Shown piece by piece: positions 7,715 to 62,438 of a stretch of 64,000 bases of DNA (the stretch's first letter is position 1; every line of letters begins with the position of its first letter). Source of the stretch: Opitutales bacterium. Lineage in GTDB: Bacteria > Verrucomicrobiota > Verrucomicrobiia > Opitutales > Intestinicryptomonadaceae. The DNA is taken from contig SUVP01000002.1 in the NCBI GenBank assembly GCA_015061945.1, positions 186,001-250,000 of the forward strand. The letters run 5' to 3'. The translations under genes and the position numbers were made by a program. Below the pieces are notes generated by a model, which was not told the origin of the DNA, did not search any database, and saw only the letters and a list, made by a program, of their open reading frames with translations.

Positions 7715-9451
7715 TTATTTTCTTTTTCTGTACATTGCAAATGCGAGAGCAATACCGCCGAAAATCATAGCCCATTCAGCTGGTTCTGGAACTGCTGCTG
7801 GGATGTTAAGCCAAAAACCTTGCATACCATTCCATTCGCCCGCAACCATTTGGAAATCGTCATTTGTATAGGTTCTGTTTTGATTTAACTCAGATTTCAA
7901 ATATGCGTCTGACAATGTTGCTGAAATTGAAACTATAAAGTCTGGCTTCTTTGTGCCTACCATTGCTCCAACATCTTCCATATTCTGAATGAAAATTCTG
8001 TTATTCTCAAATTCGTTAATAGACAATTTTGCATAGCTTGTATTTTCAAAAGCATAACCTTGTGCAAATTGAGTAAATGATACTACTCCACTATCGCCAA
8101 GTGTAATTGTAAATTCGCAATCTTTTTGCCACGATATCTCTCCGAATGCTGAATCTGCATTTACGACAATCTCAGCTGACACACTACTACCCAACACGAT
8201 TTGTGTGTTGAAGTTTGCCATGTCGTTTTGGTACCCTTCTTTGTATTCAAAAAGTGTAGTATCGTATGCACTTGACTTAACAAAAATATTTTTATTATTC
8301 AAATGAATCGTTCCGTCTGCACCAGTACCATTATTTACAAATGTTACCTTATCTGCAACAATTGCACCTTGGCGACCTGCATTGATATATACATCAACTT
8401 TTCCACCACTATATTGACCAACTTTAAAGTCGTTCCCACCTTGTGAACTTGCTGTATGCAAATAAGCATTTCCTTTGAGATTGATTTGATTGTTTTTGCC
8501 TTTCCCAACGCTAAAAGTGTATTGATTATTTTCATCAGCCAACTTTGCATCGGCAACCATCATTGATGCGTTGTTTGCGATATTCAAAACACCACCTGTC
8601 ATCAAGAATGCGTTGTCGCCAAAAGTTTGGACTCTACCAGCTTTGATATTTAATGTTGCTCCTGCTTCTACAACAACACCAGCTAAAACGGAATCACGAC
8701 CATCGTTGATATTCAAAGTCGAACCTGTATAAAGGTTGAGTTTACCTTTCTCTGTTTTCGACTGACCAGCAACACTGATATTATCAACATTAATCGTAGC
8801 AGATCCAACATCAATCTTTGCATTATTGCCTGCAGAAATCATTTTAGCATTCAATTTAGCATAGCCATTTAGAGACAAACCTGCTGACGATTCATTGTTA
8901 TTTGCACCTACATAAATAGTATTTGCATTCAAAGTTGCTTTATTGTCTATACGAAGATTTGAATATTTACCACCGAAAATATTAATATCACCAAATGTAG
9001 CAACTGCATTTTCTCCACTTACTTCGAGATACGCTTTGCCATCTGTACCAATTTCTGTATACGCATTTGTATTCAACTTGCCGTAAACATGCATTCTACC
9101 AGCAAACAAGTACAACCCAGAATACTCAGGATCTGATACATTGAAATTCATCGTACCAGACACTTTTACAGTTCGTACCGAATTATCGAAGTCTGTCTGA
9201 CTATACATATAGAAATTCGAGCCATCTTCGATATTAAGCGTACCACCCGATTGTACATCAACTGAAGTGTAATTTTCATCACCGCCCCATTGATTTGTAT
9301 TGTATTGGCTGTCTACATAAATTTCACCAAATATATCTTTGGTTGCACCATCGGCAACAGTTAACGATGTTGCAGTCTGTGCGTATGATGCTGTTGCAAA
9401 TGCACCAATAGATAAAGCTAAAAGGAGGCTCTTTAAGTTGTTCATAGTCAT
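7715..9451 (-). CDS. PEP-CTERM-sorted beta-helix surface protein
   Basis: A 578-residue exported protein with a signal peptide (MNNLKSLLLALSIGAFATASYAQ) and a C-terminal exosortase signal: VPEPAEWA, a hydrophobic helix, then the basic tail YRKRK. In known systems exosortase recognises this tail and processes the protein at the inner membrane before release to the surface. The middle is rich in Asn, Gly, Thr and Val in short repeated strands (LNIEDGS, LNIKAG, LNINDG), suggesting a right-handed beta-solenoid like autotransporter passengers. No catalytic motif is visible. Two in-frame ATGs two codons apart (9451, 9445) could be the start; neither has a clear Shine-Dalgarno. The matching exosortase is at 54348-55352. 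Confidence 0.85.
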   Translation of the reverse strand: MTMNNLKSLLLALSIGAFATASYAQTATSLTVADGATKDIFGEIYVDSQYNTNQWGGDENYTSVDVQSGGTLNIEDGSNFYMYSQTDFDNSVRTVKVSGTMNFNVSDPEYSGLYLFAGRMHVYGKLNTNAYTEIGTDGKAYLEVSGENAVATFGDINIFGGKYSNLRIDNKATLNANTIYVGANNNESSAGLSLNGYAKLNAKMISAGNNAKIDVGSATINVDNISVAGQSKTEKGKLNLYTGSTLNINDGRDSVLAGVVVEAGATLNIKAGRVQTFGDNAFLMTGGVLNIANNASMMVADAKLADENNQYTFSVGKGKNNQINLKGNAYLHTASSQGGNDFKVGQYSGGKVDVYINAGRQGAIVADKVTFVNNGTGADGTIHLNNKNIFVKSSAYDTTLFEYKEGYQNDMANFNTQIVLGSSVSAEIVVNADSAFGEISWQKDCEFTITLGDSGVVSFTQFAQGYAFENTSYAKLSINEFENNRIFIQNMEDVGAMVGTKKPDFIVSISATLSDAYLKSELNQNRTYTNDDFQMVAGEWNGMQGFWLNIPAAVPEPAEWAMIFGGIALAFAMYRKRK

Positions 9452-29887: not shown

Positions 29888-30484
29888 TTATCTATTAGAT
29901 GAAATTGTATTGACGATGTCAAACGCCAAGTCTGCCATCGCTTTGTCGATTGCCTCAACATACGATTTATACGTTTTGCCACAATCGATTTTTATCGAAA
30001 AATCTTTTACTATTTGCTTTGCATTGTCAACAGAATCCGCCTGCCACTTACCGTTGAAAATCAACACTCCACCAAGTGTACCGATGCAATCATTTATGTA
30101 GATACGCAAATTCATTGCGTCTTTCGCAAACGACGGATATGCGAAAACATCGACCTCATCGGATGTCGCACAAATGTTATCAATCAACACACGTGTAAAA
30201 TTGCTCTGTGCCGATTCCGCCCATCTATTAAATTCGGAAAGCTCCACTGTGCCATTTTGAGACAAGCTTACGATTTGATTGCGTGCCATATACGATGGCG
30301 TTGTAATCGGCAAAATATTTATTTTCAGCAGAGTATCCAAATTCACTTTTGCGATATTATTTGCCGGACGCATAAGGTAAAATTTGGTAAAATCTTCTTT
30401 AGGCTCAAGAAATCCGCCCAAACACGATGTCAAAAGTGGAGTTATTACTGCCAAAAAAATTATAGATATAATATTATTTTTCAT
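29888..30484 (-). CDS. ABC-type transport auxiliary lipoprotein (PqiC/DUF330-like)
   Basis: A 198-residue lipoprotein with a lipobox ending TSC (FLAVITPLLTSCLGG, lipid Cys about residue 21) and a PqiC/ABC-auxiliary-like fold suggested by FYLMRPANN near the start and INDCIGTLGGVLIFNGKWQ. Partners of MCE transporters of this kind are anchored in the outer membrane and receive lipid from the MCE tunnel. Its start overlaps the MCE gene end by 11 bp. It could equally be named YrbC/MlaC-like by position, but MlaC is a soluble non-lipoprotein, so the auxiliary lipoprotein call fits better. Confidence 0.72.
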   Translation of the reverse strand: MKNNIISIIFLAVITPLLTSCLGGFLEPKEDFTKFYLMRPANNIAKVNLDTLLKINILPITTPSYMARNQIVSLSQNGTVELSEFNRWAESAQSNFTRVLIDNICATSDEVDVFAYPSFAKDAMNLRIYINDCIGTLGGVLIFNGKWQADSVDNAKQIVKDFSIKIDCGKTYKSYVEAIDKAMADLAFDIVNTISSNR

Positions 30485-31493
30485 TTGATGCCTCCTTCGC
30501 TTTTTTCTTTCCAGTCAATAACGAGCTTGGGTTTCGCTCGATATAATCGGTCAGATTAGAAATTGAATTTAAGGATTCATTGAGTGTGCGAATCAATACC
30601 GCAAGCTCGTATCGAAGTGGAGATTGCGGAGCCACTATTGTATCAACGTTTTTCAAAACGCTATCTATATTTGCAAACGTACTCTGCCCCGCCTTCGACA
30701 ACGCCAAAAACTCTGCTTGTGATGTACCCATAAATTGCGATGCATCCGTCATCAACTTGTTGAGATTTTTCGGAGCATTTTTTACATCGTCTGAAGCGAC
30801 TATATCGTTCACATTTTTTACAAGCACATTCGATGTGTCGAGCAACTGCGAGATTTTTTGCGGTGCCGATTGCGTTTCAGGATTCGCAACAATCGTATTG
30901 AGATTTGCCAAAAGATTATTTGTATTTTCACCAATCGCCTTAAAATCAATCTGCGAGACATTTTCAATGGTCTTGCTAAATGCTTTCACAAGTTCGGCAA
31001 GCCCTGATTCCGAGCTTGGAATTTCAATCATATTGCGTTTGCCTCTATAATACAGTTTGTAAGACTCGCCCGCCTGTGCGAGAAAATCGAGCTCAATATA
31101 AAGCATACCTGTTACTACACTTTGGTAATTGAGTTTTGCACGCAAACCATCTGTGATTTGCTGGTTAATCCAAGTATTAAAATCGACAACAGTTTTACCT
31201 GTCCTACGGCGAAGTAAGTCGACATCGATAGAATAAATTACCGCAACTTTGCTTTGGCGAATTGTCTTCGATGGTGCCATCATAATCTTTTCAACCTTGC
31301 CGATTTTCACACCCTTGTATTTGAGTGGAGCTCCGACATCCAAGCCGTTAACACTTTCGGAAAAGAATGAGATAAAAGTCTCGGTTTTTGCAAAAAATTT
31401 TGCAGTGCCAAACACTACAACTGCTACGACAGATATTACTGCCGAAGCCAGAACAAACATCCCTATTGCAACTGGATTTACATTTTTTTTCAT
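30474..31493 (-). CDS. mlaD: MCE-domain lipid transport protein (MlaD type)
   Basis: A 339-residue inner-membrane-anchored MCE protein. One N-terminal helix (NPVAIGMFVLASAVISVVAVVVF) precedes the single MCE domain (FSESVNGLDVGAPLKYKGVKIGKVEKI). Residues 170-330 form a long helical tail with repeated Asn-Leu-Asn stretches (NTNNLLANLN, NLNKLMTDASQF, NLTDY), which in related proteins makes a tunnel or needle. MlaD in E. coli is shorter (about 180), so this is a long-tail MCE. Its ATG overlaps the ATPase stop (ATGA). Role: retrograde or anterograde phospholipid movement with MlaE/MlaF; direction is not known here. Confidence 0.9.
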   Translation of the reverse strand: MKKNVNPVAIGMFVLASAVISVVAVVVFGTAKFFAKTETFISFFSESVNGLDVGAPLKYKGVKIGKVEKIMMAPSKTIRQSKVAVIYSIDVDLLRRRTGKTVVDFNTWINQQITDGLRAKLNYQSVVTGMLYIELDFLAQAGESYKLYYRGKRNMIEIPSSESGLAELVKAFSKTIENVSQIDFKAIGENTNNLLANLNTIVANPETQSAPQKISQLLDTSNVLVKNVNDIVASDDVKNAPKNLNKLMTDASQFMGTSQAEFLALSKAGQSTFANIDSVLKNVDTIVAPQSPLRYELAVLIRTLNESLNSISNLTDYIERNPSSLLTGKKKAKEASNEK

Positions 31494-32329
31494 TTTTCTG
31501 CGTCTTTTGTTCGAGGATCAACACCTCTGTTGAGGAAAATGCGAACATCGGCATTGTCGGAATTTAAAAGCTCTTTCGGAGAACCGATTGCCGTTTGTGT
31601 TCTTGTTTTTGTGTCGAGAAATATCGCTCTATCGGCGATATCAAAAATACTTGCGAGTTCGTGCGAAACCACGACGATAGTCGCACCGAGAGAATCACGC
31701 ATCTGCACGATAAGTTCGTCGAGTCTATGCGATGAAATGGGGTCGAGCCCAGCGGAAGGTTCGTCGAAAAACAGCACGAGAGGATCGAGTGCAATGGCTC
31801 GGGCAAGCCCTGCACGTTTGCACATACCGCCACTAATTTCTGACGGATAGAACCCACCAAACCCGTTCAGCCCAACAAGCGACAATTTTAAATCGACAAT
31901 TTCTTCGGCGTCTTGGTCTGAAATATCTTTGAACTCACGCAAGGGCAATGCTACATTTTCGGCAAGTGTCATCGACGACCACAACGCACCGCCTTGATAC
32001 AACACGCCAAACTGTCGGAGCATTTCAATTTTCTCTTTATCTTCTGCGTCCGAAAAATTTTTACCTCTGAAATAAATCGTCCCTTTTGCTGGTTTAATCA
32101 GCCCAATCATATGGCGAAGTAGCGTACTTTTGCCACATCCACTACCGCCCATAATGAAGAAAATTTCGCCTTTTTTGACAGAAAAGTTGAGGTCGTGCAT
32201 AACGGTATAATCGCCGTATGCCATTGTCAAATTTTCGATTTTGAAAATGTCTTCAACTTCTGTCGGATTTTCCGATACCACAGAATTTGCAATTTTTTGA
32301 ATTTTATTTTCTGTATTTTCTGTGTTCAT
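31490..32329 (-). CDS. mlaF: MlaF-type ABC ATPase
   Basis: The 279-residue ATPase energises lipid transport. It has Walker A GGSGCGKSTLLRH, signature EISGGMCKRAGLARA, Walker B LVLFFDEPSAGLD and VVSHELAS with the switch His, all in the MlaF style. I start it at MNTENTENK (32329), because the permease stop and this ATG share TAATG; a longer frame from 32386 would run into the permease gene. The 40 N-terminal residues before the ABC core are polar and not conserved in E. coli MlaF. Confidence 0.92.
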   Translation of the reverse strand: MNTENTENKIQKIANSVVSENPTEVEDIFKIENLTMAYGDYTVMHDLNFSVKKGEIFFIMGGSGCGKSTLLRHMIGLIKPAKGTIYFRGKNFSDAEDKEKIEMLRQFGVLYQGGALWSSMTLAENVALPLREFKDISDQDAEEIVDLKLSLVGLNGFGGFYPSEISGGMCKRAGLARAIALDPLVLFFDEPSAGLDPISSHRLDELIVQMRDSLGATIVVVSHELASIFDIADRAIFLDTKTRTQTAIGSPKELLNSDNADVRIFLNRGVDPRTKDAEK

Positions 32330-33483
32330 TAGATATCGAAAATTGTAAAGATTACTGCGAAAATTGCGTCGGCTACGATAATCCAAGTGATGCTTTGCAC
32401 AACGCTCGATGTTGTCGCCATACCGACCCCAGCCGAGCTATTCTCACACTGCAAGCCCATTCGACAACCGATACACGCAACAATTATCCCGAAGATAAAA
32501 CTTTTCATCACGCCTGTTGATATCTGCACCAAATTTAATGCAGATAGTGTTCTGTTTGCGTATTGATCATAACTAATATCGAACATTCCTGCCCCGATTA
32601 CAAAACCACCAAGCATACCGATAACATCGGCAAAAATTGTAAGCAATGGGAACATCAATACCAACGCCAACACGCGTGGGAACACGAGAAACTCCATTGG
32701 AGATATACCGAAAGTTCGGAATGCCGATATTTCTTCGTTTACTTTCATCGACCCAAGCTCAGCCGCAAATGATGCCCCTGTGCGACCACTCATCACAATA
32801 CCAACCATCATAGCACCCATTTCACGAACCATTGCAATCCCGACAAGGTCGGCAACAAAAATTTCAGAACCATATTTTGCAAGTTGAATAGCACCGACAA
32901 ATGCGAGAATCAATCCTACAAGAAAACTTATCAATGCGACAATCGGCAATGCTTCGGGACCAGACGATTGTATAATCGAGAGCAAGTCGCTTGTGCGATA
33001 CCTCGCCTTACCACGCAATGCGTTAAGCGATGCTATCGTCAATTCACCCACAAAACCACACTGACTTGCGATAGTGTCCATAAACTTAATCGCACGCGAG
33101 CCAACCGTGTTAAAAAGATTCCAATCTCCGTCATTTTTTTCAGCACTAACTTCAGGCACCGCAACAGCCAACTTCAATAGTTCACGTGGACCTTCTGGGA
33201 GCGACTCTAAATCGACATCAATATTTTGTTCTTTGCAAGATTCGTAGCACTTTAAAAGCATACAAACCAAAGCAGAATCGTACGTTCCAAGCGACGATGT
33301 TTCAAAAGAAAGTTTAGACAAATTTTTGGGGATAGACGCAATTATTTCTTTTGAATTTGTGCGAGTTTCCGACAACAACCAATCGCCCGCAATCTGCAAA
33401 ACTGCGGAATCACCTTCCCCGACGATTTTTGCTGTCGCCTTTGCGACAGAATCAGATGACAATATTTTCTTTAATCCAAACAT
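32329..33483 (-). CDS. mlaE: MlaE-type permease with N-terminal STAS-like domain
   Basis: A 384-residue fusion. Residues 1-110 look like a STAS domain (IAGDWLLSETRTN..., LSFETSSLGTYDSALVCMLLKCYE), the MlaB-like regulator that is separate in E. coli. From about residue 125 comes the MlaE permease with GELTIASLNALRGK, REMGAMMVGIVMSGRTGASFAAELGSMKVNEEISA (the characteristic coupling region) and five or six hydrophobic helices. The fusion is common in STAS-MlaE proteins. It is first in the operon and divergent from the GH42-like gene over 132 bp. The transporter maintains outer-membrane lipid asymmetry in characterised systems. Confidence 0.92.
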   Translation of the reverse strand: MFGLKKILSSDSVAKATAKIVGEGDSAVLQIAGDWLLSETRTNSKEIIASIPKNLSKLSFETSSLGTYDSALVCMLLKCYESCKEQNIDVDLESLPEGPRELLKLAVAVPEVSAEKNDGDWNLFNTVGSRAIKFMDTIASQCGFVGELTIASLNALRGKARYRTSDLLSIIQSSGPEALPIVALISFLVGLILAFVGAIQLAKYGSEIFVADLVGIAMVREMGAMMVGIVMSGRTGASFAAELGSMKVNEEISAFRTFGISPMEFLVFPRVLALVLMFPLLTIFADVIGMLGGFVIGAGMFDISYDQYANRTLSALNLVQISTGVMKSFIFGIIVACIGCRMGLQCENSSAGVGMATTSSVVQSITWIIVADAIFAVIFTIFDI

Positions 33484-33615: not shown

Positions 33616-35484
33616 ATGAAAAAATTACTGTCTCTTATACTTCTACTCGCGACTTCATTTTGTCTATCCACTCCTAAAGAAAAGTTTTTTGCATATCGTT
33701 CATTCTACCCCGAAACTTCCGCAATGCGTGATTTTGGCAATGCTGGAATAAATCTTTACGCAGTAATGCCATCGAACTCGTTTAATACACTCGGCGAACC
33801 ATACTGCAAATTCAAACCATTTTGGGTCTGGGACGAAACTTATCTTTGGAACGTTGTCGATGAACAATTCGACCTCGTTATTAGACAAAATCAAAATGCA
33901 AAATTTATCGTGATGATTGATATCAACAGCCCTTTGTGGTTGTATCGCCGATTAGAAATACGTTTTGGTATGGGTGGCGATAGCTTCAACGATATGACTA
34001 ATTCGCTCTGCATTCCAGAATGGAAAAATCTTACCACAAAAATGGTTAAGGCGTATGTCGAACATATGGAAAAACAATATGGCGATAGAATCTTTGCCTA
34101 TATGATTGCAGGCGGAGGTTCGAGTGAATGGTACGATTCTTCAAAAGGTCGTGCCCTTGTATTCAAAGAAAAGGAATGGGAAAAATACTTACAGAAAAAA
34201 GGCCTACCAAATTGGGTTCACCCTACCCACAAAGAATTATACACTCCCACTTTCGACAATCTCTACTTTGATCCACAAACACAAGCTTTCAGAATCCATT
34301 ACGCACACTTTACCGAAAAATTGATTTCTGACGGCATGGATTATTTCTCAAAAATCGTGCGTGATATAGTCGGCGATAAACGTCAGATTGGGGCTTTTTG
34401 CGGATTCTTACCGCATACGCTCGTTGGAAAAATCGACAACAGGCAAACTTATTCTTCGTCATATAACGATTTTGTAGGCGACCCTGGGGGATACGATAAC
34501 AGACGTATCGGTATGGGTGGCGGAATGAATGCCCCCGTAAAATCCTTAAAATTACAAGGCAAACACTGGTTCCAAGAAATCGATCATCGCACACACACTT
34601 TCAATTACGATTTGTCTCCATACATAAAAATATTCGGCAAAGATATGTATGGTATGAAAAATCAACAAGAAACAACCGCTATGCTCAAACGTGAGTTCTC
34701 GCTTGCAATTGTGATGCAAAATTCACTTTGGTGTTTCGATATGTGGGGAGGAGTTTTCAGCACTCCCGAAACAATGGAAGTTATCGCAAAAGCCCACAAG
34801 CTTTGGCAACAACACAAAGACGACAACTTGCCAATGCACTCCGAAATTGTGTATATTGCCGACCCCGATAGCTGTATGTATATAGAGTATCCGTCTGTAA
34901 AATATTTTAAACGCATTCTATTCTCTTGCGGAGCTTCGTTCGACCACATCATATTTGACGATATCGCAAAAGTAGATTTTTCAAAATACAAAGTTGTAGT
35001 CTTCCCTCACACATTTGAAATTACTTCCGAAAAGAAAAAACTCCTCGATAAATACGTTTTTAAGGATAATAAAACAATCGTAACAATGGGTGCCTTTGGC
35101 ACGACAGACGGCAAACGTATTGATAAAAAATTTACCGAAAATTTAACGGGCTTTAAATACAAACAAAATGGAATAAATCGGAAAAATATGGGAGATTGGG
35201 TTAGCGTTTACGCCGGCAATGAAGAATCGTTCAACAAAAATAATTTTATGGATATAATCAAGAAAGCCGGTGTTCATTTATATACCGATGAACCACTGCC
35301 CGTTTACGCAAACAAAAACCTTGTTGCTATCCATACCGAAAACGGAGGCAAAAAAACTATCTATCTACCCAAGAAAGTAAAAAAAGTTAAGGAACTCTTT
35401 ACTGACAAAATTATAGAAGTAAACGACAACAAATTTGAATACAACTTCAGCCAACCCGACACTGCATTATTTTCTCTTGAATAA
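33616..35484 (+). CDS. Secreted GH42-like glycosidase homologue (paralogue of 56266 gene)
   Basis: A 622-residue exported protein (signal peptide MKKLLSLILLLATSFCLS). The first 350 residues look like a clan GH-A TIM barrel: NSPLWLYRR, then AGGGSSEWYD with candidate acid/base E171, and HWFQEIDHRTHTF with candidate nucleophile E321. Residues about 400-500 resemble the Rossmann-like trimerisation domain of beta-galactosidase (GH42), then a small C-terminal domain (LYTDEPLPVYANKNLV). The motifs GEW and E-x-D-x-R-T are shared with the 882-residue gene at 56266, as is the C-terminal LYTDEP/IYTKQP stretch, so they are paralogues. The exact sugar is unknown. It ends at a strong terminator. Confidence 0.7.
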   Translation: MKKLLSLILLLATSFCLSTPKEKFFAYRSFYPETSAMRDFGNAGINLYAVMPSNSFNTLGEPYCKFKPFWVWDETYLWNVVDEQFDLVIRQNQNAKFIVMIDINSPLWLYRRLEIRFGMGGDSFNDMTNSLCIPEWKNLTTKMVKAYVEHMEKQYGDRIFAYMIAGGGSSEWYDSSKGRALVFKEKEWEKYLQKKGLPNWVHPTHKELYTPTFDNLYFDPQTQAFRIHYAHFTEKLISDGMDYFSKIVRDIVGDKRQIGAFCGFLPHTLVGKIDNRQTYSSSYNDFVGDPGGYDNRRIGMGGGMNAPVKSLKLQGKHWFQEIDHRTHTFNYDLSPYIKIFGKDMYGMKNQQETTAMLKREFSLAIVMQNSLWCFDMWGGVFSTPETMEVIAKAHKLWQQHKDDNLPMHSEIVYIADPDSCMYIEYPSVKYFKRILFSCGASFDHIIFDDIAKVDFSKYKVVVFPHTFEITSEKKKLLDKYVFKDNKTIVTMGAFGTTDGKRIDKKFTENLTGFKYKQNGINRKNMGDWVSVYAGNEESFNKNNFMDIIKKAGVHLYTDEPLPVYANKNLVAIHTENGGKKTIYLPKKVKKVKELFTDKIIEVNDNKFEYNFSQPDTALFSLE

Positions 35485-35519
35485 CCAAAGGAGATAGGCA
35501 CATAAAAAGTATTAAAACG

Positions 35520-35547
35520 AAAAACCTCCAACACATTGGAGGTTTTT
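35520..35547 (+). terminator. Intrinsic terminator after the GH42-like gene
   Basis: A perfect 10-bp stem (AAAAACCTCC / GGAGGTTTTT) with an 8-nt loop and T-run, 35 bp past the stop. A smaller AAGGA/TCCTT hairpin at 35603-35618 nearer the ABC gene end is weak. Confidence 0.85.
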
Positions 35548-35634
35548 CTGTATAAATGTACCACTCGTTTCAAAGAGCAATATTACCTATGATAATCATC
35601 GTAAGGAGTAAAGTCCTTTTAATAATATTCATGC

Positions 35635-36414
35635 TCATTTAGATATGCCCCATTTTTTGCGGAGGTGCAATTCCAATGGCGAAAATAGAACTTTATCTAC
35701 AAGCAAACCGATTGCGATAACTACGCACATCACGCCGATAACTTGGTTCATATCCATAAGTTCACGTCCGTAGTGTAGTAGTTGTCCCAAACCAAAACCT
35801 GACAAGATTGTAACATAGATTTCGGCTGCCATCAATGAACGCCACGCAAATGCCCAACCTTGTTTCATTCCGCCTAATATACTCGGGAACGATGCTGGCA
35901 AAATAACTTTCAACCATGTGTGCATCCCCTTTGATCCCATTGTCTGTGCGGCACGCAAATAAATTGGTGGAATATTTTTTACGCCGTGTTCCGTCGCAAG
36001 AATCATCGACCAGACTGTCCCCATAACGACAACAAACAACATCGCCGATTCTTCTTGTCCAAACCACATAATTGCGAGAGGAACCCAGCAAACACTTGGC
36101 AACGCTTGCAAACCAAGTGCGAGCAAACCAATAGTATCTCTAAAACAGTTGAATCGTGAACACAACATCCCTGTTGGTATACCGATAATCAAACCGATTG
36201 AATAGCCCATCAGCAAGCGTTTCAAGGTTACCCAAATTGCCGATAAAAGTGTTCCGTCGAGTATAGAACTGCCAAGATACCCTGCTACTTCAGACGGTGG
36301 TGGTAAAACGTATTCAAACAATCCAAAATATCTTACAGCCAATTCCCAGATGAGAAATAAAACCGCAAATGCAACGATTGAAACAACCAATCTTTTATAA
36401 TTTTTCTTTTTCAT
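35635..36414 (-). CDS. Sulfonate/nitrate/taurine-type ABC permease
   Basis: A 259-residue inner-membrane permease of the SsuC/TauC/NrtB family with about six helices and the EAA-loop segment LRAAQTMGSKGMHTWLKVILPASFPSILGGMKQGWAFAW. The stop is TGA at 35635. Its ATG shares TAATG with the ATPase stop. Specificity cannot be read from the permease. The set could import organosulfonates, taurine, nitrate, thiamine precursors or bicarbonate; sulfonates are favoured only because a sulfide-oxidising enzyme lies across the divergent region. Confidence 0.88.
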   Translation of the reverse strand: MKKKNYKRLVVSIVAFAVLFLIWELAVRYFGLFEYVLPPPSEVAGYLGSSILDGTLLSAIWVTLKRLLMGYSIGLIIGIPTGMLCSRFNCFRDTIGLLALGLQALPSVCWVPLAIMWFGQEESAMLFVVVMGTVWSMILATEHGVKNIPPIYLRAAQTMGSKGMHTWLKVILPASFPSILGGMKQGWAFAWRSLMAAEIYVTILSGFGLGQLLHYGRELMDMNQVIGVMCVVIAIGLLVDKVLFSPLELHLRKKWGISK

Positions 36415-37214
36415 TATTCGGCAATATCCTTTCCGAATTGATTTTTTAAATACGATGTAATTTCGTGTGCGTATGATGTCAACGCTGGGTCGTTAATATC
36501 ACGTGGACGTGGCAAGTCTATATCAAATTTCTTGATAATTCTACCTGGGTGTGGCGAAAATAAAATGACTCTATCGCCCAAGCAGACTGCTTCACGGATA
36601 TTGTGTGTTACAAACAAAATTGTCTTTTTGCGTTTTTCCCAAATTTGTTGAATTTCGCCATAGAGTTGCTCACGAGTGAGAGCGTCGAGCGCACCAAAAG
36701 TTTCGTCCATAAGCAAGATTCTCGGATTGGGAGCGAGCGATCGTGCAAGTGCTACTCTTTGACGCATACCGCCCGAAAGCTCGTGAATAGATGCCTTTGC
36801 GAACTTTTCAAGACCGACTAAATGCAAGTAGAACATTGCAACTTCTTTGCGTTCTGGTTCGGTAAGATTTGGTTTTAAACGCAAACCAAAAAGAACATTC
36901 CCGATAACATCGAGCCATGGGAAAAGTGCGTGTTCTTGGAACATCACCATTCTGTCTCGCCCCGGACCTTTCACTTGTGTGTCTTCGACCAAAATCTCGC
37001 CACTATCGGGCATATCCAAACCAGCTACAAGATTTAAAAGTGTCGATTTCCCGCAACCGCTCGGTCCCACAAGGCACACAAATTCGCCTTCTCCGATATT
37101 CAAGCTGACGTCTTTAAGTGCATCAACTTTCCCTTGTGCCGATTCATATGTCTTGCAGACATTTTTTACAGAAAGTTTTGCAGTTATATTTTGTAGTTCT
37201 GCTGATACGCTCAT
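36414..37214 (-). CDS. Sulfonate/nitrate/taurine-type ABC ATPase
   Basis: A 266-residue ATPase of the SsuB/TauB/NrtD group: Walker A GPSGCGKSTLLNLVAG, Q-loop FQEHALFPWLDV, signature HELSGGMRQRVALARS, Walker B ILLMDETFGALD (Glu-Thr-Phe is the group's usual variant of DEPFGALD) and VTHNIREAV. It overlaps the permease start and follows the binding-protein gene by 1 bp. The four-gene order porin, binding protein, ATPase, permease runs leftward as one unit. Confidence 0.9.
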   Translation of the reverse strand: MSVSAELQNITAKLSVKNVCKTYESAQGKVDALKDVSLNIGEGEFVCLVGPSGCGKSTLLNLVAGLDMPDSGEILVEDTQVKGPGRDRMVMFQEHALFPWLDVIGNVLFGLRLKPNLTEPERKEVAMFYLHLVGLEKFAKASIHELSGGMRQRVALARSLAPNPRILLMDETFGALDALTREQLYGEIQQIWEKRKKTILFVTHNIREAVCLGDRVILFSPHPGRIIKKFDIDLPRPRDINDPALTSYAHEITSYLKNQFGKDIAE

Positions 37215-37215
37215 A

Positions 37216-38175
37216 CTATTTTTCCCAATAGAATTTATCCATTTTCATTTTATTGCGTAAGAATCCGCATTTATAAGCATAGTCCACAAATTTTTGGACT
37301 TCATCTTTATTGATTTTGCTTGTAAAAGTTATGCGTTGCCATGAATCTCGAACGAGTTTCTCCGAGATTTTTCCGCCAGTCAAAGCCTCGAGTTCCAACA
37401 AGACAAGCTTTTGTGCTTCGGCTGGATTTTTATTTATCCATTCTGTCAATTCGATATGTGCTTGAACAAATTTTTTGACCAGCTCTGGATGTTTTTTCAA
37501 CACTCTGTTGCACGATACGACAATCGTTGTTATAGCTTCTTTTTGTTCGAGAAAAATCTTTCCACCACCTTCTTGTTCGAGACGTGTTACCCATGGCTCG
37601 ATAGTCCATACGGCGTCGAGATTTCCTTGTCTAAACAACGACAACTGTTCGGGGTTTGCAGTCGCAATAACTTTTGCTTCTCCCGATGTCAACGTTACGG
37701 GGATGCCGTTTTCTATAAGCCACGCTCTGCAAGCTACGTCTTGAGTATTTCCCAACTGCGGAGTCCCGATTTTCTTCCCCTTAAAATCTGACGGCTTTGT
37801 TATATTTAGTTTCGGGTTTACAACAAGCGACGCACCACCATCTGCGGAACCTGCAATTACACGAATATCACGCCCACGGGTTCTCGCAAATGCGTTAATA
37901 GCTGGGTTTGGTCCGACGTATGTAATGTCAACCGCCCTTGTGAACATAGATTCCATTGCACTTGGACCAGCGTTAAAAAGACGCCACTGTACTTTTACAT
38001 CTTTACCAAGACGTTGTTCAAACCAGCCCTTGCCCTGTCGGCTGAGTTGATGTGCCACAAGTGCTTGTGCGTGCGAAATGTTTGGGAAGTGTCCAATCTG
38101 AATAACCGTTTCTTTCGGTTCAGGTGAACACCCTGCCAATAAAGCGACCAATGTAAGTGCGAAAAACTTTTTCAT
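37216..38175 (-). CDS. ABC substrate-binding lipoprotein (SsuA/TauA/NMT1 type)
   Basis: A 319-residue periplasmic binding lipoprotein. I start it at MKKFFALTLVALLAGCSPEP (38175), which gives a textbook lipobox LLAGC; a Met four codons upstream is less likely. It has the NMT1/SsuA features TVIQIGHFPNISHAQAL, AMESMFTRAVDITYVGPNPAINAF and DFKGKKIGTPQLGNTQD. This superfamily binds alkanesulfonates, taurine, nitrate or pyrimidine precursors; residues that decide this are not known to me, so the ligand stays open. A 47-bp gap leads from the porin gene. Confidence 0.88.
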   Translation of the reverse strand: MKKFFALTLVALLAGCSPEPKETVIQIGHFPNISHAQALVAHQLSRQGKGWFEQRLGKDVKVQWRLFNAGPSAMESMFTRAVDITYVGPNPAINAFARTRGRDIRVIAGSADGGASLVVNPKLNITKPSDFKGKKIGTPQLGNTQDVACRAWLIENGIPVTLTSGEAKVIATANPEQLSLFRQGNLDAVWTIEPWVTRLEQEGGGKIFLEQKEAITTIVVSCNRVLKKHPELVKKFVQAHIELTEWINKNPAEAQKLVLLELEALTGGKISEKLVRDSWQRITFTSKINKDEVQKFVDYAYKCGFLRNKMKMDKFYWEK

Positions 38176-38222
38176 AATAATAAACACTCAATTTTTGAAT
38201 CTTCTAAAAATATTTCAAGCAA

Positions 38223-39515
38223 TTAAAATCTTACTTGAAACTGCATACGCAACGCACTCGATTCGGCAAAATCTCCACTATGTTTATCGTCTGCCGAACC
38301 TGAATATTGAATGTAGCTGTACCCCAGTTGAAGTTTTACATCGTCTCCACTCAGATACCAATTCAGACCAAAATAGAATTCTTGTGCGTTATTATAAAGC
38401 GTACCGACATTAGTTGCCTGACGTTGTGCGTCAGAAACCATAAGCCCACGTCCACCTGTATCGAGCCATGAATATCTGAACGCTGGAGCAATCTGCCCGA
38501 ACTCGTCAATATCGATTCTATATTCCAACGCAAAATTTAATCCGTAAGGATTTGCTTGTCGATATTGCCCTGCGACCATTTTACCGTCGGCAACGCCAGA
38601 TGCTAAAAAGTCTCCCCAAAAGTACAAATTGCCCCAATTTCCAGTATAATATGGATTGATTGTATAAGCCGATGATGAATCCATTAAGCCCATATTTTGA
38701 TTCGCCGAACCTGAATACATCGAGTATATCCCGAATTTCACTTTTGCATTTTCACGTTTAATTTCATAATGCAACCCCAACCAATACGCTGGACTATCAT
38801 CTTGGAAATTGTACGCAAGCTCGTCTATCCGATATGGCGAAAGATTGAATCCGTTTGATATTCCCAAATTATAGGTTAAGCCTTCAACTTGTTTTACATT
38901 GCCACGCCAACGTATACCTGCATATCGACTCCCGATTCCCAAACGTCGTCCATTTGCAGCACCAGTCCAATAATTTGTCGATGCCGAACGCTCGATAGTC
39001 ATCAAAGTTCCAGACGAAAATAAATCTTCGACGCAAATACCCGGTTTCATATAACCGAACGATAAGTCGCCATTGATATATTCGCCGTCAATTTTTTTAG
39101 CTATATAATTATCGGTAAGAATACTATTTACATACGATCTCGCCAAGTCGACTGAAACACAAGCCGACCAACCACTACCTAAACTCGCATCGGCTTGCAG
39201 AATTATCCTTCGGACAATTACGCCCATATTTGAATCTTTTTCCGGAGCACCTACGCCTGATTTTGCAGATGAATTTATCCATTCGCCTTGAACTTGCATT
39301 CTTCCGCTAAATCGCAACATATTTGTAGTTGGACGCAAAATTTCGACATCTCCGACCGATTCTTTGGCAATTTCCGATGCCTCTGCCGGAGTCAAAATCC
39401 CTTTTTCGACAAGTGCATTTAGCATTGCTTTGTCAGACGCACACAAGTCGTATGTGTAAACAAACATACAAGCCAATGATAAAACAAGCTTTATCATCGA
39501 TTTAATTTGCAACAT
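38223..39515 (-). CDS. Outer-membrane porin, phosphate-selective porin O/P type
   Basis: A beta-barrel porin of about 430 residues. I take the start at MLQIKSMIKLVLS (39515), giving a signal peptide ending DLCASD; longer starts (39536, 39617) would put 34 extra residues in front and cover the inverted repeat at 39574-39616. After a short helical segment (MLNALVEKGILTPAEASEIAKES) come alternating strands with many aromatic turns (FYFGLNWYLSGDDVKLQLGYSYIQYSG), ending in MQFQVRF with the C-terminal Phe needed for BAM assembly. It is the first gene of the ABC operon, so it should admit the same substrate through the outer membrane. Confidence 0.8.
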   Translation of the reverse strand: MLQIKSMIKLVLSLACMFVYTYDLCASDKAMLNALVEKGILTPAEASEIAKESVGDVEILRPTTNMLRFSGRMQVQGEWINSSAKSGVGAPEKDSNMGVIVRRIILQADASLGSGWSACVSVDLARSYVNSILTDNYIAKKIDGEYINGDLSFGYMKPGICVEDLFSSGTLMTIERSASTNYWTGAANGRRLGIGSRYAGIRWRGNVKQVEGLTYNLGISNGFNLSPYRIDELAYNFQDDSPAYWLGLHYEIKRENAKVKFGIYSMYSGSANQNMGLMDSSSAYTINPYYTGNWGNLYFWGDFLASGVADGKMVAGQYRQANPYGLNFALEYRIDIDEFGQIAPAFRYSWLDTGGRGLMVSDAQRQATNVGTLYNNAQEFYFGLNWYLSGDDVKLQLGYSYIQYSGSADDKHSGDFAESSALRMQFQVRF

Positions 39516-39573
39516 ATTATGTAAAACGTTTGACATACCAAATTTTTCAGACGCTAAACTATATCCTTTTTTG

Positions 39574-39616
39574 TGCAACAAAAAATAAGAAAATTTTGAT
39601 TCTAAATTTTGTTGCA
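39574..39616. promoter_or_regulatory. Inverted repeat between the porin/ABC operon and sqr
   Basis: TGCAACAAAA (39574-39583) and its exact complement TTTTGTTGCA (39607-39616) are spaced centre to centre by 33 bp, three helical turns, in the divergent 168-bp spacer. The left arm overlaps a small TTTTTTGT-GCA-ACAAAAAA hairpin. This fits a dimeric regulator that serves both directions. Confidence 0.45.
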
Positions 39617-39683
39617 ATGGTAGAGATCTAACGGCATACTCCTCTTTGATAATAATCTGAAATAGTGTAAGGAGAAATTAGAT

Positions 39684-41024
39684 ATGCAAACATCTGAAAT
39701 TAAAAGAAGAAACTTTTTAAAAATTGCAGGACTCGGCGGTGCAACTGCACTTATCGCAAGCGGTGCGGTATATCAAATGACAAAAGTATCGAGCGATGCC
39801 AAAGCTAAAGTTGTTGTTATCGGTGGTGGTGCGGCTGGTATCAGCGTTGCTTCTCGCCTTATGCGTTGGCTCAAAACTCCAGACATCACAATTATCGATC
39901 CAAGCGACAGACATTATTATCAGCCAGGTTTTACTCTTATCGCAGGTGGAGTTTATTCGCCCGACGAAGTTTGGCTCAATCAAAAAGATTGTATTCCATC
40001 GGGTGCAAAGTGGATTAAAGATTCAGTTGTAGCTCTCGACCCTGATAAGAAAAATATTACAACTGCAAAAAACGGAAATGTTCAGTATGATTTCCTCGTA
40101 CTCACTCCTGGGCTCGTCTTGCGTTGGGACTTAATTGAAGGTATTGATGAATCAACACTCGGCAACGGAAACGCTCATTGTATCTACACTCACAATGGTG
40201 CAATTAAGGCGTCAAAAGCAATGAAAGAGTTTGCACAAAAAGGTGGTAAAGGTATTTTTACCGACACTTACACAAAACACAAATGCGGTGGTGCACCTAA
40301 AAAAGTCTGCTTGCTGACCGAACATCAGTCTCGTAAAAATAATCGTCGAGACGCTCTCGATATCAATTTCTACACAGCGTCAAAACAACTTTACGACGTA
40401 AAATATTTCACACCTCGACTCCTTGAAATTTATCAAGAACGCAACGTTAAACTCAACCTCAATACACGTGTAAAAGGAATCGATACAGTTGCAAAAAAAG
40501 CTCTCTTGCAGACGGTCAAAGACGGCAAAGTTATTAAATCGGTCTATGAAGATTTCGACTTTATGCACTTCCTCCCACCTATGACTGCTCCTCAATTTGT
40601 CAAAGATGCGGGGCTTTCTGTCGTCGGCGGAAAACGTGATGCTGAAATGTGGGTTGATGTCGACAAAGGAACACTGGTTCACAAAAAATATCCAAATATT
40701 ATTTCGCTTGGGGACGTCGCTGGTATTCCAACAAGCAAGACCTCGGCAGCAATTCGCAAACAAGTGCCGATTGCGACCCTCAACCTTATCTCACTTATGG
40801 AAGGTAAACAACCCGAACAAATTTACGACGGCTACGCTGCTTGCCCTATCATCACCGATTACGGACATCTGATTATGGCTGAATTCGATTATCAAAAAAA
40901 TCGCAAAAATACTTTCCCATTCTCAATATTAGATATGTCAAAAGAAAGCAGAATGGGTTGGCTTCTAAAAGTGTATGGTCTTAAACCGATGTACTTCTAC
41001 GGAATGCTAAATGGTTTAGCATAA
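39684..41024 (+). CDS. sqr: Sulfide:quinone oxidoreductase with Tat-type leader
   Basis: A 446-residue flavoprotein of the SQR family (type II, human SQOR-like). It oxidises sulfide to protein-bound or soluble sulfane sulfur and passes electrons to quinone. Key parts are the FAD motif VVVIGGGAAG (residues 43-52), KCGGAPKK with C201, and YDGYAACPIITDYGHLIMAEFDY with C387, the redox cysteine pair, and NIISLGDVAG. The N-terminus EIKRRNFLKIAGLGGATALIASG is a twin-arginine leader, so the enzyme may act on the periplasmic face. A strong AAGGAG (39669-39674) precedes the ATG by 9 bp. It is divergent from the porin/ABC operon. Confidence 0.9.
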   Translation: MQTSEIKRRNFLKIAGLGGATALIASGAVYQMTKVSSDAKAKVVVIGGGAAGISVASRLMRWLKTPDITIIDPSDRHYYQPGFTLIAGGVYSPDEVWLNQKDCIPSGAKWIKDSVVALDPDKKNITTAKNGNVQYDFLVLTPGLVLRWDLIEGIDESTLGNGNAHCIYTHNGAIKASKAMKEFAQKGGKGIFTDTYTKHKCGGAPKKVCLLTEHQSRKNNRRDALDINFYTASKQLYDVKYFTPRLLEIYQERNVKLNLNTRVKGIDTVAKKALLQTVKDGKVIKSVYEDFDFMHFLPPMTAPQFVKDAGLSVVGGKRDAEMWVDVDKGTLVHKKYPNIISLGDVAGIPTSKTSAAIRKQVPIATLNLISLMEGKQPEQIYDGYAACPIITDYGHLIMAEFDYQKNRKNTFPFSILDMSKESRMGWLLKVYGLKPMYFYGMLNGLA

Positions 41025-50738: not shown

Positions 50739-51722
50739 ATGTTTTCACGACGCAACTTCATCCTATCGCTGCTCGGGCTATCTTGTGTAGCGCCGAAAGC
50801 CGTTGCGTTGACTGTAAAAGATACTGAATATATCCCGATATCGCAATTCGCACAAATTTGCGGTATGCGATACCGAACAACCGTTGCGAGAAAAGCTCAA
50901 ACCGTTTATAGCAAATATTCGAGAATAAATTTTATCGTAAACGCACGTTCGATAAACCTCAATGGGACAACAGTTTGGCTCGGGCATCCGATTGTTGAAT
51001 ACAAAGGAATGCTCTATTTGGCAAAGCGAGACTATTTCAAAACAATCCGCCCTATTATGTACCCGCAAAATAACGGTGTACCGCCAAGATTGTTCAATAT
51101 ATTTATCGACGCCGGACATGGCGGAAAAGATAAAGGGGCTATCAATAAAAGATTTGGTGTTTACGAAAAAACTTTGAATCTTGATATCGCACTTCGCTTG
51201 GGCAAAATTTTAAGAGCAAGTGGATATAATGTCAGCTATTCACGTACGAGCGATAAGTTCCTCGACTTGCCCGATAGACCTGCAATGGCAAATAAACGTC
51301 GGGCAGATTTGTTCTTGAGTATTCACTGCAATGCGGCGAGTCCGTCAATTAGTGGAATAGAAACTTTTGCACTCACACCACGTGCGATGCCGTCTACAAC
51401 AAGTGCAAAAATCGGCAAAGGCGATTATGTAAAATATAATGGACATACAAATGATGAATGGAATCAGATGCTTGCATATTATATCCAACGTGCCTTGCAT
51501 ACCGCAACTCGCTCATCCGATAGAGGTGTAAAAAAAGCACGCTTTGCCGTCTTGAAAGATACACGTATGCCCGCTTCGCTCATTGAATGCGGATTCATTT
51601 CAAACGATGCAGAATGTAGAAAAATGATGTCGGCAGAGTATCGGCAATCAATAGCACGAACAATCGCAAATGCCGTTATGAACTATCACAACACATTGCG
51701 AAGACTTTCTCGAAAAAAATAA
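50739..51722 (+). CDS. Exported N-acetylmuramoyl-L-alanine amidase (Amidase_3)
   Basis: A 327-residue zinc amidase that cleaves the MurNAc-L-Ala bond. The N-terminus MFSRRNFILSLLGLSCVA is a Tat-type leader (S-R-R-N-F). Residues about 25-115 are an accessory region, probably a copper-amine-oxidase-like N-domain (MLYLAKRDYFKTIRPIMYPQN). The Amidase_3 core has DAGHGGKDKGA, YEKTLNLDIA, LFLSIHCNAA and the C-terminal ASLIECGFISN with the catalytic Glu. It lies 4 bp after infC, so it is probably translated from the same mRNA. Role in cell separation is likely. Confidence 0.93.
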   Translation: MFSRRNFILSLLGLSCVAPKAVALTVKDTEYIPISQFAQICGMRYRTTVARKAQTVYSKYSRINFIVNARSINLNGTTVWLGHPIVEYKGMLYLAKRDYFKTIRPIMYPQNNGVPPRLFNIFIDAGHGGKDKGAINKRFGVYEKTLNLDIALRLGKILRASGYNVSYSRTSDKFLDLPDRPAMANKRRADLFLSIHCNAASPSISGIETFALTPRAMPSTTSAKIGKGDYVKYNGHTNDEWNQMLAYYIQRALHTATRSSDRGVKKARFAVLKDTRMPASLIECGFISNDAECRKMMSAEYRQSIARTIANAVMNYHNTLRRLSRKK

Positions 51723-54347: not shown

Positions 54348-55352
54348 TTATTTAGAATTATCTTCTGTCTGTGGTTGTTGATTATCTCTGAATTCTTTTG
54401 GAACAATGCTGAATTGGAAAATCGGCAACAAGAGCAAAAGTCCGACGACTGTTGCACCCAAGACAAAATATCCAGCGGCATCGTGAACAAACCCTGCTAT
54501 TGAATCTGGACCATTTTCATACGCCCATATCGACAAGAATAAAGCTCGGAGAATATTGTTAAAAAACGCAAAACCCATCGAACAAGCCACAAGCAATATC
54601 TTCTTCCAGAGCTTATCGAGGAACACTGCCGACAAGAACGACCCCGCAAACAAACAAGCTGTCAACGAGCGAATCCCACTGCATGCGTCGGCGACACCAA
54701 CATTGCCGTTTGGGAAACAAAGCGAGTTGCCTTTCATTTCAACGAGGAACCCGAAGAAATCCATAAATCCGCAAACGAGCACTGCAACTTTTGAGAGCAA
54801 GAAAAGGCTTATTGCGTGTTCAACTGACGAGAATACTGGTGCTGAAATTATCCACGCAAATGCGGGAAAAACGAACAATGATGAAAAACCTAATCTTTGA
54901 CGCAATCCCATTTGCTCGCCTTTGAGATTTTTTGACGACGCAAAGAAAGTCATCGCAAAAAATAAGAACGAAAACCCGAAAGTCATAGGGAACATTGCCG
55001 ACGATGCCGGATTGCCCGAGCCACCTTTAAGAATCGCAAACAATAAGAAAGTTAACGCTCCGCAAACGAGCATTCCGCCGAAGAAAAAGTTAGCAAAATA
55101 ATCTGCAAGCGAGCGTTTTGTAGCGAGCGAATCTTTTTGAAAATAACCGAAGATTTTTTCCCATCTATCGAACAAAACGTAAATACAAAACATCGGCATA
55201 ATATAACCGAAGCTGTAATCGACTCTGTTTGCCCAAACGTATTTTAGCGACAACGTTTCGATAACAATCATCGACAAAATAATCAACGCACTCACTACAA
55301 CTTGCGTCGGCATTTGGAAAAATTGATATTTTTTTAGTTCTGAAAAATTCAT
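54348..55352 (-). CDS. xrt: Exosortase
   Basis: A 334-residue inner-membrane protease/transpeptidase that processes PEP-CTERM proteins. Eight or so hydrophobic helices hold the active-site residues: C224 in ADACSGIRSL, R269 in NILRALF, and H290 in HDAAGYFVL, the conserved Cys-Arg-His set. The ATG overlaps the epsI stop by four bases (ATGA), and GH106 follows 8 bp later. The PEP-CTERM protein at 7715-9451 is the only candidate substrate in this window. Subtype (XrtA, XrtB, etc.) cannot be assigned by eye. Confidence 0.92.
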   Translation of the reverse strand: MNFSELKKYQFFQMPTQVVVSALIILSMIVIETLSLKYVWANRVDYSFGYIMPMFCIYVLFDRWEKIFGYFQKDSLATKRSLADYFANFFFGGMLVCGALTFLLFAILKGGSGNPASSAMFPMTFGFSFLFFAMTFFASSKNLKGEQMGLRQRLGFSSLFVFPAFAWIISAPVFSSVEHAISLFLLSKVAVLVCGFMDFFGFLVEMKGNSLCFPNGNVGVADACSGIRSLTACLFAGSFLSAVFLDKLWKKILLVACSMGFAFFNNILRALFLSIWAYENGPDSIAGFVHDAAGYFVLGATVVGLLLLLPIFQFSIVPKEFRDNQQPQTEDNSK

Positions 55353-56080
55353 TTTTTTGCTTCCCCTTTGTCTTCAAGAATGAGTTTGCCCAACGCTTTT
55401 ATTATCTTTTGGAATTCCTTATCTTCTTTGAGAGTGAGAATATCTTGCGAAGAATCTACTCTGATAAAATATTGTTCTGGAGCACCCCTGAAAGTCGACA
55501 ACAACACATTTTTCAGGTATTCAAAAGAGAACGCATTGAAAAAAGTAGCACTATCACCATAATCGTATCGTTCACCATCCATCATATGCCAAAAGCAAAC
55601 AAAACGCTCAACTGGTGTCGAAAAATTCTTGTATATCATACGACGATAAAATGCAGGGATAAGCTTCATATCGTCTACCTTAAGCACGACATCACTGCGG
55701 GCTTTCGATTTATCGTTTTCCCAACCATTGAGGATCCAGCACTTGTCTGGAGTATGGTCTGTTACAACACGTCCGTTAGCCTTGCCCGCTTCCCAATATG
55801 CGATATACACAACAAACGATTTTGTCCCATCAGACGATGTATATTCTTTATTGAAATACTCATTACTACCCAAAATTTTTTCAGCCGCACGAACCGCTTC
55901 TTCGTTTGGACCAAGTGGGATATCTTTAGAAGTCCATCCATCAAGAGATGCTGGAATAACCTTTTTTAAGTGGTCCGTCGCTTTGGGAGCTGATTTTGGT
56001 TGCGTTGAATATGCAAAAAACAAAAAGTAAATTGCAATAGCAACTACCAAACCTACAAATATATTTATATATCTTAACAT
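55349..56080 (-). CDS. epsI: EpsI-family exosortase-associated protein (DUF3485)
   Basis: A 243-residue protein with an N-terminal helix (YINIFVGLVVAIAIYFLFFAYS) and the EpsI/DUF3485 domain: FVVYIAYWEAGKANGR, HTPDKCWILNGW and MDGERYDYGD. In other systems EpsI is fused to or next to exosortase and takes part in exopolysaccharide assembly. I start it at MLRYINIF (56080); a longer frame from 56116 adds 12 residues without a signal. The stop overlaps the exosortase start. No other exopolysaccharide synthesis genes are present in the window. Confidence 0.88.
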   Translation of the reverse strand: MLRYINIFVGLVVAIAIYFLFFAYSTQPKSAPKATDHLKKVIPASLDGWTSKDIPLGPNEEAVRAAEKILGSNEYFNKEYTSSDGTKSFVVYIAYWEAGKANGRVVTDHTPDKCWILNGWENDKSKARSDVVLKVDDMKLIPAFYRRMIYKNFSTPVERFVCFWHMMDGERYDYGDSATFFNAFSFEYLKNVLLSTFRGAPEQYFIRVDSSQDILTLKEDKEFQKIIKALGKLILEDKGEAKK

Positions 56081-56265
56081 CGCTTTTATTCTTACTTTTG
56101 CGACATTTATTGTCAAATAAAATGCCCTTTATTATTGACTATATGATAGCAACTCTTGAACTATTTTGACTTTTAATAATAAAAAAAGGAAATTATCTTG
56201 TTAAAATCGATAAAAAAACAATAATTCCCAATGTAAACACGAAATTTATATAAACTAAAATCGCT

Positions 56266-61493: not shown

Positions 61494-61520
61494 AAAAACA
61501 AAAGGCAAAGCTTGCTTTGC
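61494..61520 (-). terminator. Intrinsic terminator after the metallophosphoesterase gene
   Basis: GCAAAG-CTTG-CTTTGC forms a short hairpin overlapping the end of the stop codon. On the minus strand it is followed by CTTTTGTTTTT, a T-rich run. Confidence 0.6.
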
Positions 61521-62419
61521 TAAAAATTCAAGGTTCTCGAGACTTCTTTGCCAAAACCTTTCACTACAATTTTGTCCTCGCAAAATTCGATAGTTGAATA
61601 GGTCGGCTCTTTATTTTGGATAATAGATTGCATAGTCAGATAATGAACACTATTGTGTTGAACATAACCACCCTCGTGCAAATGCCCACAAATAAAGGCT
61701 TTCACGCACTTGTTGTTTTCCAAAATTTCTGCGATTTGTTCGTGATTAAACATTGACGCATGTGTAAATGGGAAAATTGTCATATGGCAAAATACTGCAA
61801 CTTTTTTATTTTCTTGCGTTGCTTTTTTTAATCCATTCTCAAGCCATTCGAGCTGTTCGGAATCTACGCCACCGCCCCAAACTACGCCATTTTCTTTGCC
61901 TTTTACTTTAGCAAGCCAATATGCCGATTCATTTGTGCAACGTTCATTTTTAATTTTTGAAACTCGAGAAAGTCGCATAGAATCTAAAACAAAGAAACGC
62001 CAATTTTTAACATCAAAACTATAATACGATTTACTTTCCTCGAAAAGCATCGACATCATCTTGCGTTGCACCTCTGGCTTACAACGTAAATCGTGATTAC
62101 CCAAAACATTTTTTACGGGCACTCCAACAGAAGAAAGTTCGCCCATCATTTTTTGAAGTTGTGCTGGCTCGCCCTCGACAATATCGCCCAAATTCAAGAC
62201 ACAATCAAACTTTTCATTTTTAACTTTTGAGATGGCACTTTGAACTTTCGAGAAAGACATTTTATAATCTTTTGCACCGTCATCTGCTCTATCGTCGTCG
62301 CAGTGAATATCGGCAAAAGAAAGCATTTTCACAGACTCACTCTTTTTGCACGACACAACAATCGGTGTCAAAATTCCGCCAAAAATTGACGACATAAAAT
62401 TTCTTCTACACAACTTCAT
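61520..62419 (-). CDS. Exported calcineurin-like metallophosphoesterase
   Basis: A 299-residue metallophosphoesterase. The N-terminus MKLCRRNFMSSIFGGILTPIVVSCKK contains a Tat-type C-R-R-N-F leader and a possible lipobox (VVSC, Cys at about 24). All five calcineurin motifs are present: FADIHCDD, LNLGDIVEG, LGNHDLR, CHMTIF and CGHLHEGG. I start it at 62419; an upstream Met at 62431 gives the extra residues MGWG. Substrate unknown. It is 19 bp downstream of the acyltransferase gene and has its own terminator. Confidence 0.82.
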   Translation of the reverse strand: MKLCRRNFMSSIFGGILTPIVVSCKKSESVKMLSFADIHCDDDRADDGAKDYKMSFSKVQSAISKVKNEKFDCVLNLGDIVEGEPAQLQKMMGELSSVGVPVKNVLGNHDLRCKPEVQRKMMSMLFEESKSYYSFDVKNWRFFVLDSMRLSRVSKIKNERCTNESAYWLAKVKGKENGVVWGGGVDSEQLEWLENGLKKATQENKKVAVFCHMTIFPFTHASMFNHEQIAEILENNKCVKAFICGHLHEGGYVQHNSVHYLTMQSIIQNKEPTYSTIEFCEDKIVVKGFGKEVSRTLNF

Positions 62420-62438
62420 ACCCCACCCCACACATATA

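Follow-up and report, generated by a model that had tools for sequence, protein, structure and literature searches.

FccB, a periplasmic flavoprotein that oxidises sulfide, is exported via the twin-arginine (Tat) route. It belongs to the same superfamily as the sulfide:quinone oxidoreductases (SQRs), among them human mitochondrial SQOR (PDB 6oi5), which has a mitochondrial targeting sequence at its N-terminus. In bacteria, all type II SQRs tabulated in 2015 for Sulfurimonas and other Epsilonproteobacteria bear an N-terminal TAT motif, and the same review of the genus Sulfurimonas proposes that type II SQR is transported in folded form by Tat (PMC4584964). What bacterial type II SQRs do physiologically has been termed unclear (PMC6382920).

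A stretch of 64,000 nucleotides from an Opitutales bacterium (contig SUVP01000002.1), here called the window, was found to carry a gene for a type II-like SQR with a Tat leader, divergent from a gene cluster for a porin and an ABC importer. The interval 38223-41024 takes in only the porin and SQR genes, the ABC genes lying at 35635-38187. The features are as follows.

39684-41024, + strand: Tat-leader SQR, type II-like (SQOR-like), 446 aa, starting MQTSEIKRRNFLKIAGLGGATALIASG, with putative redox cysteines C201 and C387.
39684-39800, + strand: predicted twin-arginine leader of the SQR, MQTSEIKRRNFLKIAGLGGATALIASGAVYQMTKVSSDA (motif KRRNFLK), with a Pfam TAT_signal match, invariant R8/R9 and TatC in the host.
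39574-39616, no strand: inverted repeat TGCAACAAAA-N23-TTTTGTTGCA, perfect over 10 bp with a spacer of 23, in the divergent promoter region.
38223-39497, - strand: outer-membrane porin of the phosphate-selective porin O/P family (PF07396, E 6.4e-15), likely starting at ATG 39497.
37216-38187, - strand: ABC substrate-binding protein of the SsuA/TauA family (TIGR01728, 188.5 bits against a cut-off of 163.5).
36414-37214, - strand: ABC ATPase of the same operon (PF00005, E 1.7e-31; best NCBIfam match SaoA, below cut-off).
35635-36414, - strand: ABC permease of the same operon (PF00528, E 1.2e-14; best NCBIfam match SaoP, below cut-off).
35519-35548, - strand: intrinsic terminator-like hairpin 3' of the permease gene, a 13-pair stem followed by a T-rich tail.

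The original prediction of a human SQOR-like type II enzyme with redox cysteines C201 and C387 agreed with sequence, predicted fold and alignment. The best match in a PDB sequence search was human mitochondrial SQOR (residues 42-442, E 9e-74, about 34% identity), followed at a distance by flavocytochrome c (1e-18), Aquifex SQR (2e-15), and NDH-2 and NADH oxidase entries at about 1e-5, with one NDH-2 at 3e-10. The protein matches PF07992 and has the dinucleotide-binding GGG motif of the SQOR fold. Its AlphaFold model has a mean pLDDT of 87.8, with the leader modelled poorly, and the top eight Foldseek matches of this model were all human SQOR (TM 0.84/0.92, rmsd about 2 Å, best E 3e-40), type I SQRs coming after. 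C201 and C387 align with C201 and C379 of human SQOR, and a cysteine occupies both positions in 98 of 98 aligned SQRs. FccB (PDB 5n1t, 3vrd) differs in being a far weaker match (E 1e-18 versus 9e-74 for SQOR) and in that no gene for a cytochrome subunit adjoins the window SQR gene, although the alignment with 5n1t takes in the leader region. By sequence and modelled fold the gene product is thus a type II-like SQR, akin to SQOR, and sulfide-dependent quinone reduction is its predicted activity.

Two other identities were considered and dropped. The top NCBIfam match of the protein is NF049943, a model of the type III selenoprotein, but its 212.6 bits fall far short of the cut-off of 525. Against this model, true type III SQRs of the order, taken from families other than the window's, attain 574-615, and classical type II SQRs without a leader 240-250. 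An NADH dehydrogenase was disfavoured by the PDB ranking, the fold and the phylogenetic tree, in which grouping with NADH dehydrogenases had been named as grounds for refutation; the protein was instead placed with type II-like SQRs and parted by a long branch from the type III outgroup.

The twin-arginine leader KRRNFLK likewise held up. Pfam TAT_signal matches residues 6-25 with E 6.5e-4; the 20.0 bits of this match lie slightly below the gathering score (22.7). Both R8 and R9 are kept without exception in 16 aligned homologues, so the arginine pair is no chance occurrence, and a twin-arginine leader is present in all 14 complete SQR homologues from the window's Verrucomicrobiota family. The conserved motif is of the S/T-R-R-x-F-L-K-like form with a hydrophobic stretch after it, as in Tat substrates. 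The Tat translocase was judged by TatC, which is encoded once in the host genome (G000:C14:78846-79688, E 1.1e-51) and in 18 of the 19 genomes sampled from the family, being missing only in G010. The leader of the window SQR is therefore a conserved Tat leader as judged from its sequence. Should it instead stay uncleaved as an N-terminal anchor, the enzyme would face the cytoplasm; this would fit the window leader, in which no clear AxA site was found, but it has an RR-x-F/L-x-K motif in the strict form, TatC is present, and some homologues end their leaders with an AxA-like site or a lipobox, so that we regard an anchor as highly improbable. The leader in 14 of 14 homologues, together with the TatC, UbiA-family prenyltransferase and cytochrome bd encoded by the host, makes a periplasmic location the best interpretation for SQR, and we infer that the protein is exported by Tat. 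Two further proteins of the window have Tat-like leaders: an N-acetylmuramoyl-L-alanine amidase (50739-51722, SRRNFILSLLG) and a metallophosphoesterase (61520-62431, RRNF with a lipobox-like VVSC).

The distribution of the leader was read from a quick maximum-likelihood tree of 98 SQR rows, gathered by similarity to the query and rooted on type III sequences. The window SQR falls in a clade of 43 rows (support 99, the supports given here not being bootstraps), made up of Bacteroidota and PVC bacteria that come mostly from gut and sediment: 13 from the window's family, nine from Parabacteroides and a Prevotella, ten from Rikenellaceae, five from other Verrucomicrobia, Kiritimatiellae, Lentisphaerae and a Bacteroides MAG, and six from Prolixibacteraceae and others. 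A second clade holds the SQRs of Campylobacterota (16 rows, support 99), and a third unites human SQOR with leaderless bacterial SQRs (32 rows, support 94). The clade of the window SQR lies beside the third and not within it; the tree, which has several long branches (human SQOR, L133, L135), leaves the order of the three clades unsettled. Reading of the N-termini disclosed a twin-arginine leader in every row of the first two clades except the ten from Rikenellaceae, and the leader state (RR, degenerate or none) needs just two changes over the 98 rows. Within Verrucomicrobiota the gene is patchy, with matches at E 1e-40 or better in six of 288 sampled genomes.

It had been supposed that type II SQRs normally do without a Tat leader. 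This is true of the leaderless clade, to which human SQOR belongs, but wrong as a generality, since the Epsilonproteobacteria carry the motif (PMC4584964), and the leader is not special to the window locus, as it runs through the 43-row clade. The Campylobacterota enzymes (Sulfurimonas, Sulfurovum) share the type and the N-terminal Tat motif with the window SQR at 35-41% identity, and differ in forming their own clade (support 99) and in having no porin or ABC relative found adjoining. Closer to it are the SQRs of Parabacteroides, a Prevotella sp., Prolixibacteraceae, Kiritimatiellae, Lentisphaerae and other Verrucomicrobia (45-65% identity), which share its clade and the twin-arginine leader but, outside the window's family, not the porin and ABC neighbourhood, none having been found save for a porin in one locus (L106). 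Thus, as far as sequences tell, the Tat-leader type II SQR is already known in kind, and what is added here is its spread among Bacteroidota and PVC bacteria; a limited literature search found no paper on a Tat-leader SQR in Bacteroidota/PVC bacteria or in Verrucomicrobia.

The Rikenellaceae/Alistipes SQRs (L091, L092, L095-L099, L101, L102, L116) are nested within the clade of leader-bearing proteins. In these the arginine pair is replaced by R-A, R-K or R-S, the remaining leader and an AYA-AK site being retained, and TatC was found in nine of the ten genomes. The degenerate leader could be a Tat signal of non-canonical form, or these SQRs could have changed over to another export route. As Rikenellaceae lost the second arginine and mostly keep TatC, Tat export may be dispensable for SQR in places.

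The separation of the window SQR's clade from that of the characterised SQOR also bears on the substrate. An exported protein with the same cysteines might have some different thiol or a persulfide as its main substrate, acting for instance as a thiol:quinone oxidase in the periplasm, and the unclear roles ascribed to bacterial type II SQRs (PMC6382920) would leave room for such an enzyme. The retention of both catalytic cysteines and of the SQOR fold argues for sulfide, and we consider a main substrate other than sulfide very unlikely.

On the opposite strand, ORFs, Pfam and TIGR01728 agree that the SQR gene faces a porin-binding protein-ATPase-permease operon of the SsuA class, as first proposed. 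The gaps between the four genes are short or absent, and the hairpin at 35519-35548 likely marks the end of the operon. The porin ORF was listed from TTG 39617; with the start judged from homologues, whose first residue corresponds to M41, the TTG is probably 40 codons early, and with ATG 39497 the divergent promoter region between SQR and porin measures 186 bases. The inverted repeat at 39574-39616 in this region is possibly an operator. It is the sole copy in the genome and is not conserved in relatives, and a shared regulatory motif was dropped as an interpretation for these reasons. One gene beyond the permease is an Mla-type lipid transport operon (MlaD, ATPase, MlaE; 30474-33483); the intervening gene (33616-35484) encodes a 622-aa secreted protein for which no Pfam or NCBIfam match was obtained. 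Scanning the window for Rfam families and tRNAs gave no match. Elsewhere in the window are a gene for an EpsH-family exosortase accompanied by a DUF3485 gene (54348-56116) and a gene whose product ends in a PEP-CTERM-like tail (7715-9451), which together suggest an exosortase sorting system.

The binding protein has a lipobox-like LAGC and a likely start at ATG 38175. It passes the cut-off of the TIGR01728 SsuA family profile, a profile search placed TauA first (E 1.5e-14), and its model (pLDDT 90.9) gave TauA and SsuA as the top Foldseek matches, with nitrate, bicarbonate, thiamine and pyrimidine binders close behind. Sulfonate is thus a possible substrate, going by profiles and the modelled fold. 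E. coli TauA and Xanthomonas SsuA, the top matches by fold and profile, nevertheless differ from the window protein in sharing only about 20% identity with it and in that the family yielded no desulfonating enzyme of either the TauD or the SsuD type: searches for SsuD/luciferase-family (PF00296) and TauD (PF02668) proteins recovered the E. coli controls and nothing in the 19 genomes. The SAO system (SaoX/A/P; Sec-assisted organometallic system, PMC13188914) was dropped as an identity for the ABC genes, all three matches being far below cut-offs.

The arrangement was compared across the 19 genomes of the family, many of them metagenome bins with short contigs, so that a missing neighbour can be a contig end; G012 was set aside for this. 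G010 was treated as uninformative, as it also gave no match for SQR, binding protein, UbiA or cytochrome bd. SQR is present in 15 of the 19 genomes, with readable flanks in 14. The divergent SQR-porin pair occurs in ten of these (G000, G001, G004, G005, G007, G008, G011, G013, G014, G016); a distant porin is convergent with SQR in G015, and no porin was found by SQR in G003, G006 and G009. The ABC operon follows the SQR-adjacent porin in five of the 14 (G000, G001, G005, G007 and G011, the last cut by a contig end). In the other nine testable genomes it lies away from SQR. The pair with the porin is therefore tighter than the link with the ABC genes (10/14 versus 5/14), and on the SQR tree porin adjacency needs two changes and ABC adjacency four. 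As to whether the porin is the importer's own, the evidence is divided: it stays with SQR without the ABC operon in five genomes, and accompanies the ABC operon without SQR in one.

The proposal that SQR, porin and SsuA/TauA-type importer make up one sulfur-scavenging module could take two forms, in which the porin and importer take up organosulfur compounds and SQR handles the sulfide derived from them, or the importer takes up the product of SQR. The short gaps from the porin through the ABC operon, the terminator 3' of the window's permease gene, and the closest resemblance of the binding protein's fold, which is to sulfonate binders, would all be in keeping with such a module. So would the scatter on the SQR tree of the five genomes with the full arrangement, from which the gene order is probably ancestral to the genus. 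However, the ABC operon is apart from SQR in nine of the 14 genomes, and its binding protein occurs in G002, G017 and G018, where SQR was not detected. Away from SQR the operon keeps other neighbours, as plain synteny would predict. In G004 (L070) it lies about 40 kb from SQR and directly by the Mla operon, a neighbourhood shared with the window that further supports plain synteny; in G003 and G009 it adjoins the lipoprotein and DNA-glycosylase genes which in the window follow SQR. In G006 the ABC operon has its own copy of the porin. The failure to find SsuD- or TauD-family enzymes in the 19 genomes counts against the module too. A scan of genome contigs yielded 80 SQR loci (one of which, L084, belongs to the window's family), and it also speaks against the module that in the loci searched no binding-protein relative was found by profile near SQRs outside the family within at most 7 kb on each side, less on short contigs. 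Outside the family a porin O/P gene adjoined SQR only in L106, a Bacteroidales contig, directly downstream of a Tat-leader SQR (L106:36-2751). With ABC adjacency in five of 14 genomes and four changes on the tree, an ancestral gene order of the genus that was broken repeatedly fits better than a conserved functional unit, and a coupled module is, in our estimation, unlikely. Of the conservation originally expected among relatives, the leader was kept throughout the family and the adjacency of the ABC genes was lost in nine of 14.

The best explanation of the locus, and in our judgement a likely one from sequences and models, is an exported periplasmic SQR that would oxidise sulfide into the quinone pool, for detoxification or supplementary respiration. 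A UbiA-family prenyltransferase is encoded in 18 of the 19 family genomes (missing only in G010) and may permit menaquinone synthesis, short of proving it. Cytochrome bd was found in six of the 19, the window's own and five others, so that the other genomes would need another final electron acceptor. In the scheme we infer, which extends to export in vivo, activity, product, habitat and the role of the porin, SQR would fold with FAD in the cytoplasm, be exported by Tat, and act as a monotopic enzyme bound to the inner membrane from the periplasmic side, attached by its conserved C-terminal region. Sulfide would be oxidised at C201/C387, with electrons passing to the quinone pool and on to cytochrome bd or another reductase, and sulfane sulfur (persulfide or polysulfide) would be freed outside the cytoplasm, in the periplasm. 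Its role would most likely be to detoxify sulfide or to supplement respiration in a gut-type habitat rich in sulfide, to which the nearest SQR relatives point. The divergent porin appears to be the closest genomic partner and may pass small sulfur species or anions through the outer membrane, and the SsuA/TauA-type importer would be a separate, family-wide uptake system that neighbours SQR in some species.

A more elaborate picture, which we hold to be unlikely, is a unit for periplasmic sulfide oxidation in gut anaerobes, in which the Tat-exported SQR would have a dedicated outer-membrane porin and, in some species, an importer bringing in the sulfur product or related organosulfur compounds. 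The oxidation of sulfide would then take place outside the cytoplasm, with recovery of the sulfur. The window locus by itself reveals no new system. If the activity predicted for the exported SQR is true, Parabacteroides, Rikenellaceae, the window's family and others would have an SQR that works on the outer face of their inner membrane. This would bear on sulfide detoxification in the gut and on the site at which reactive sulfur species are formed.
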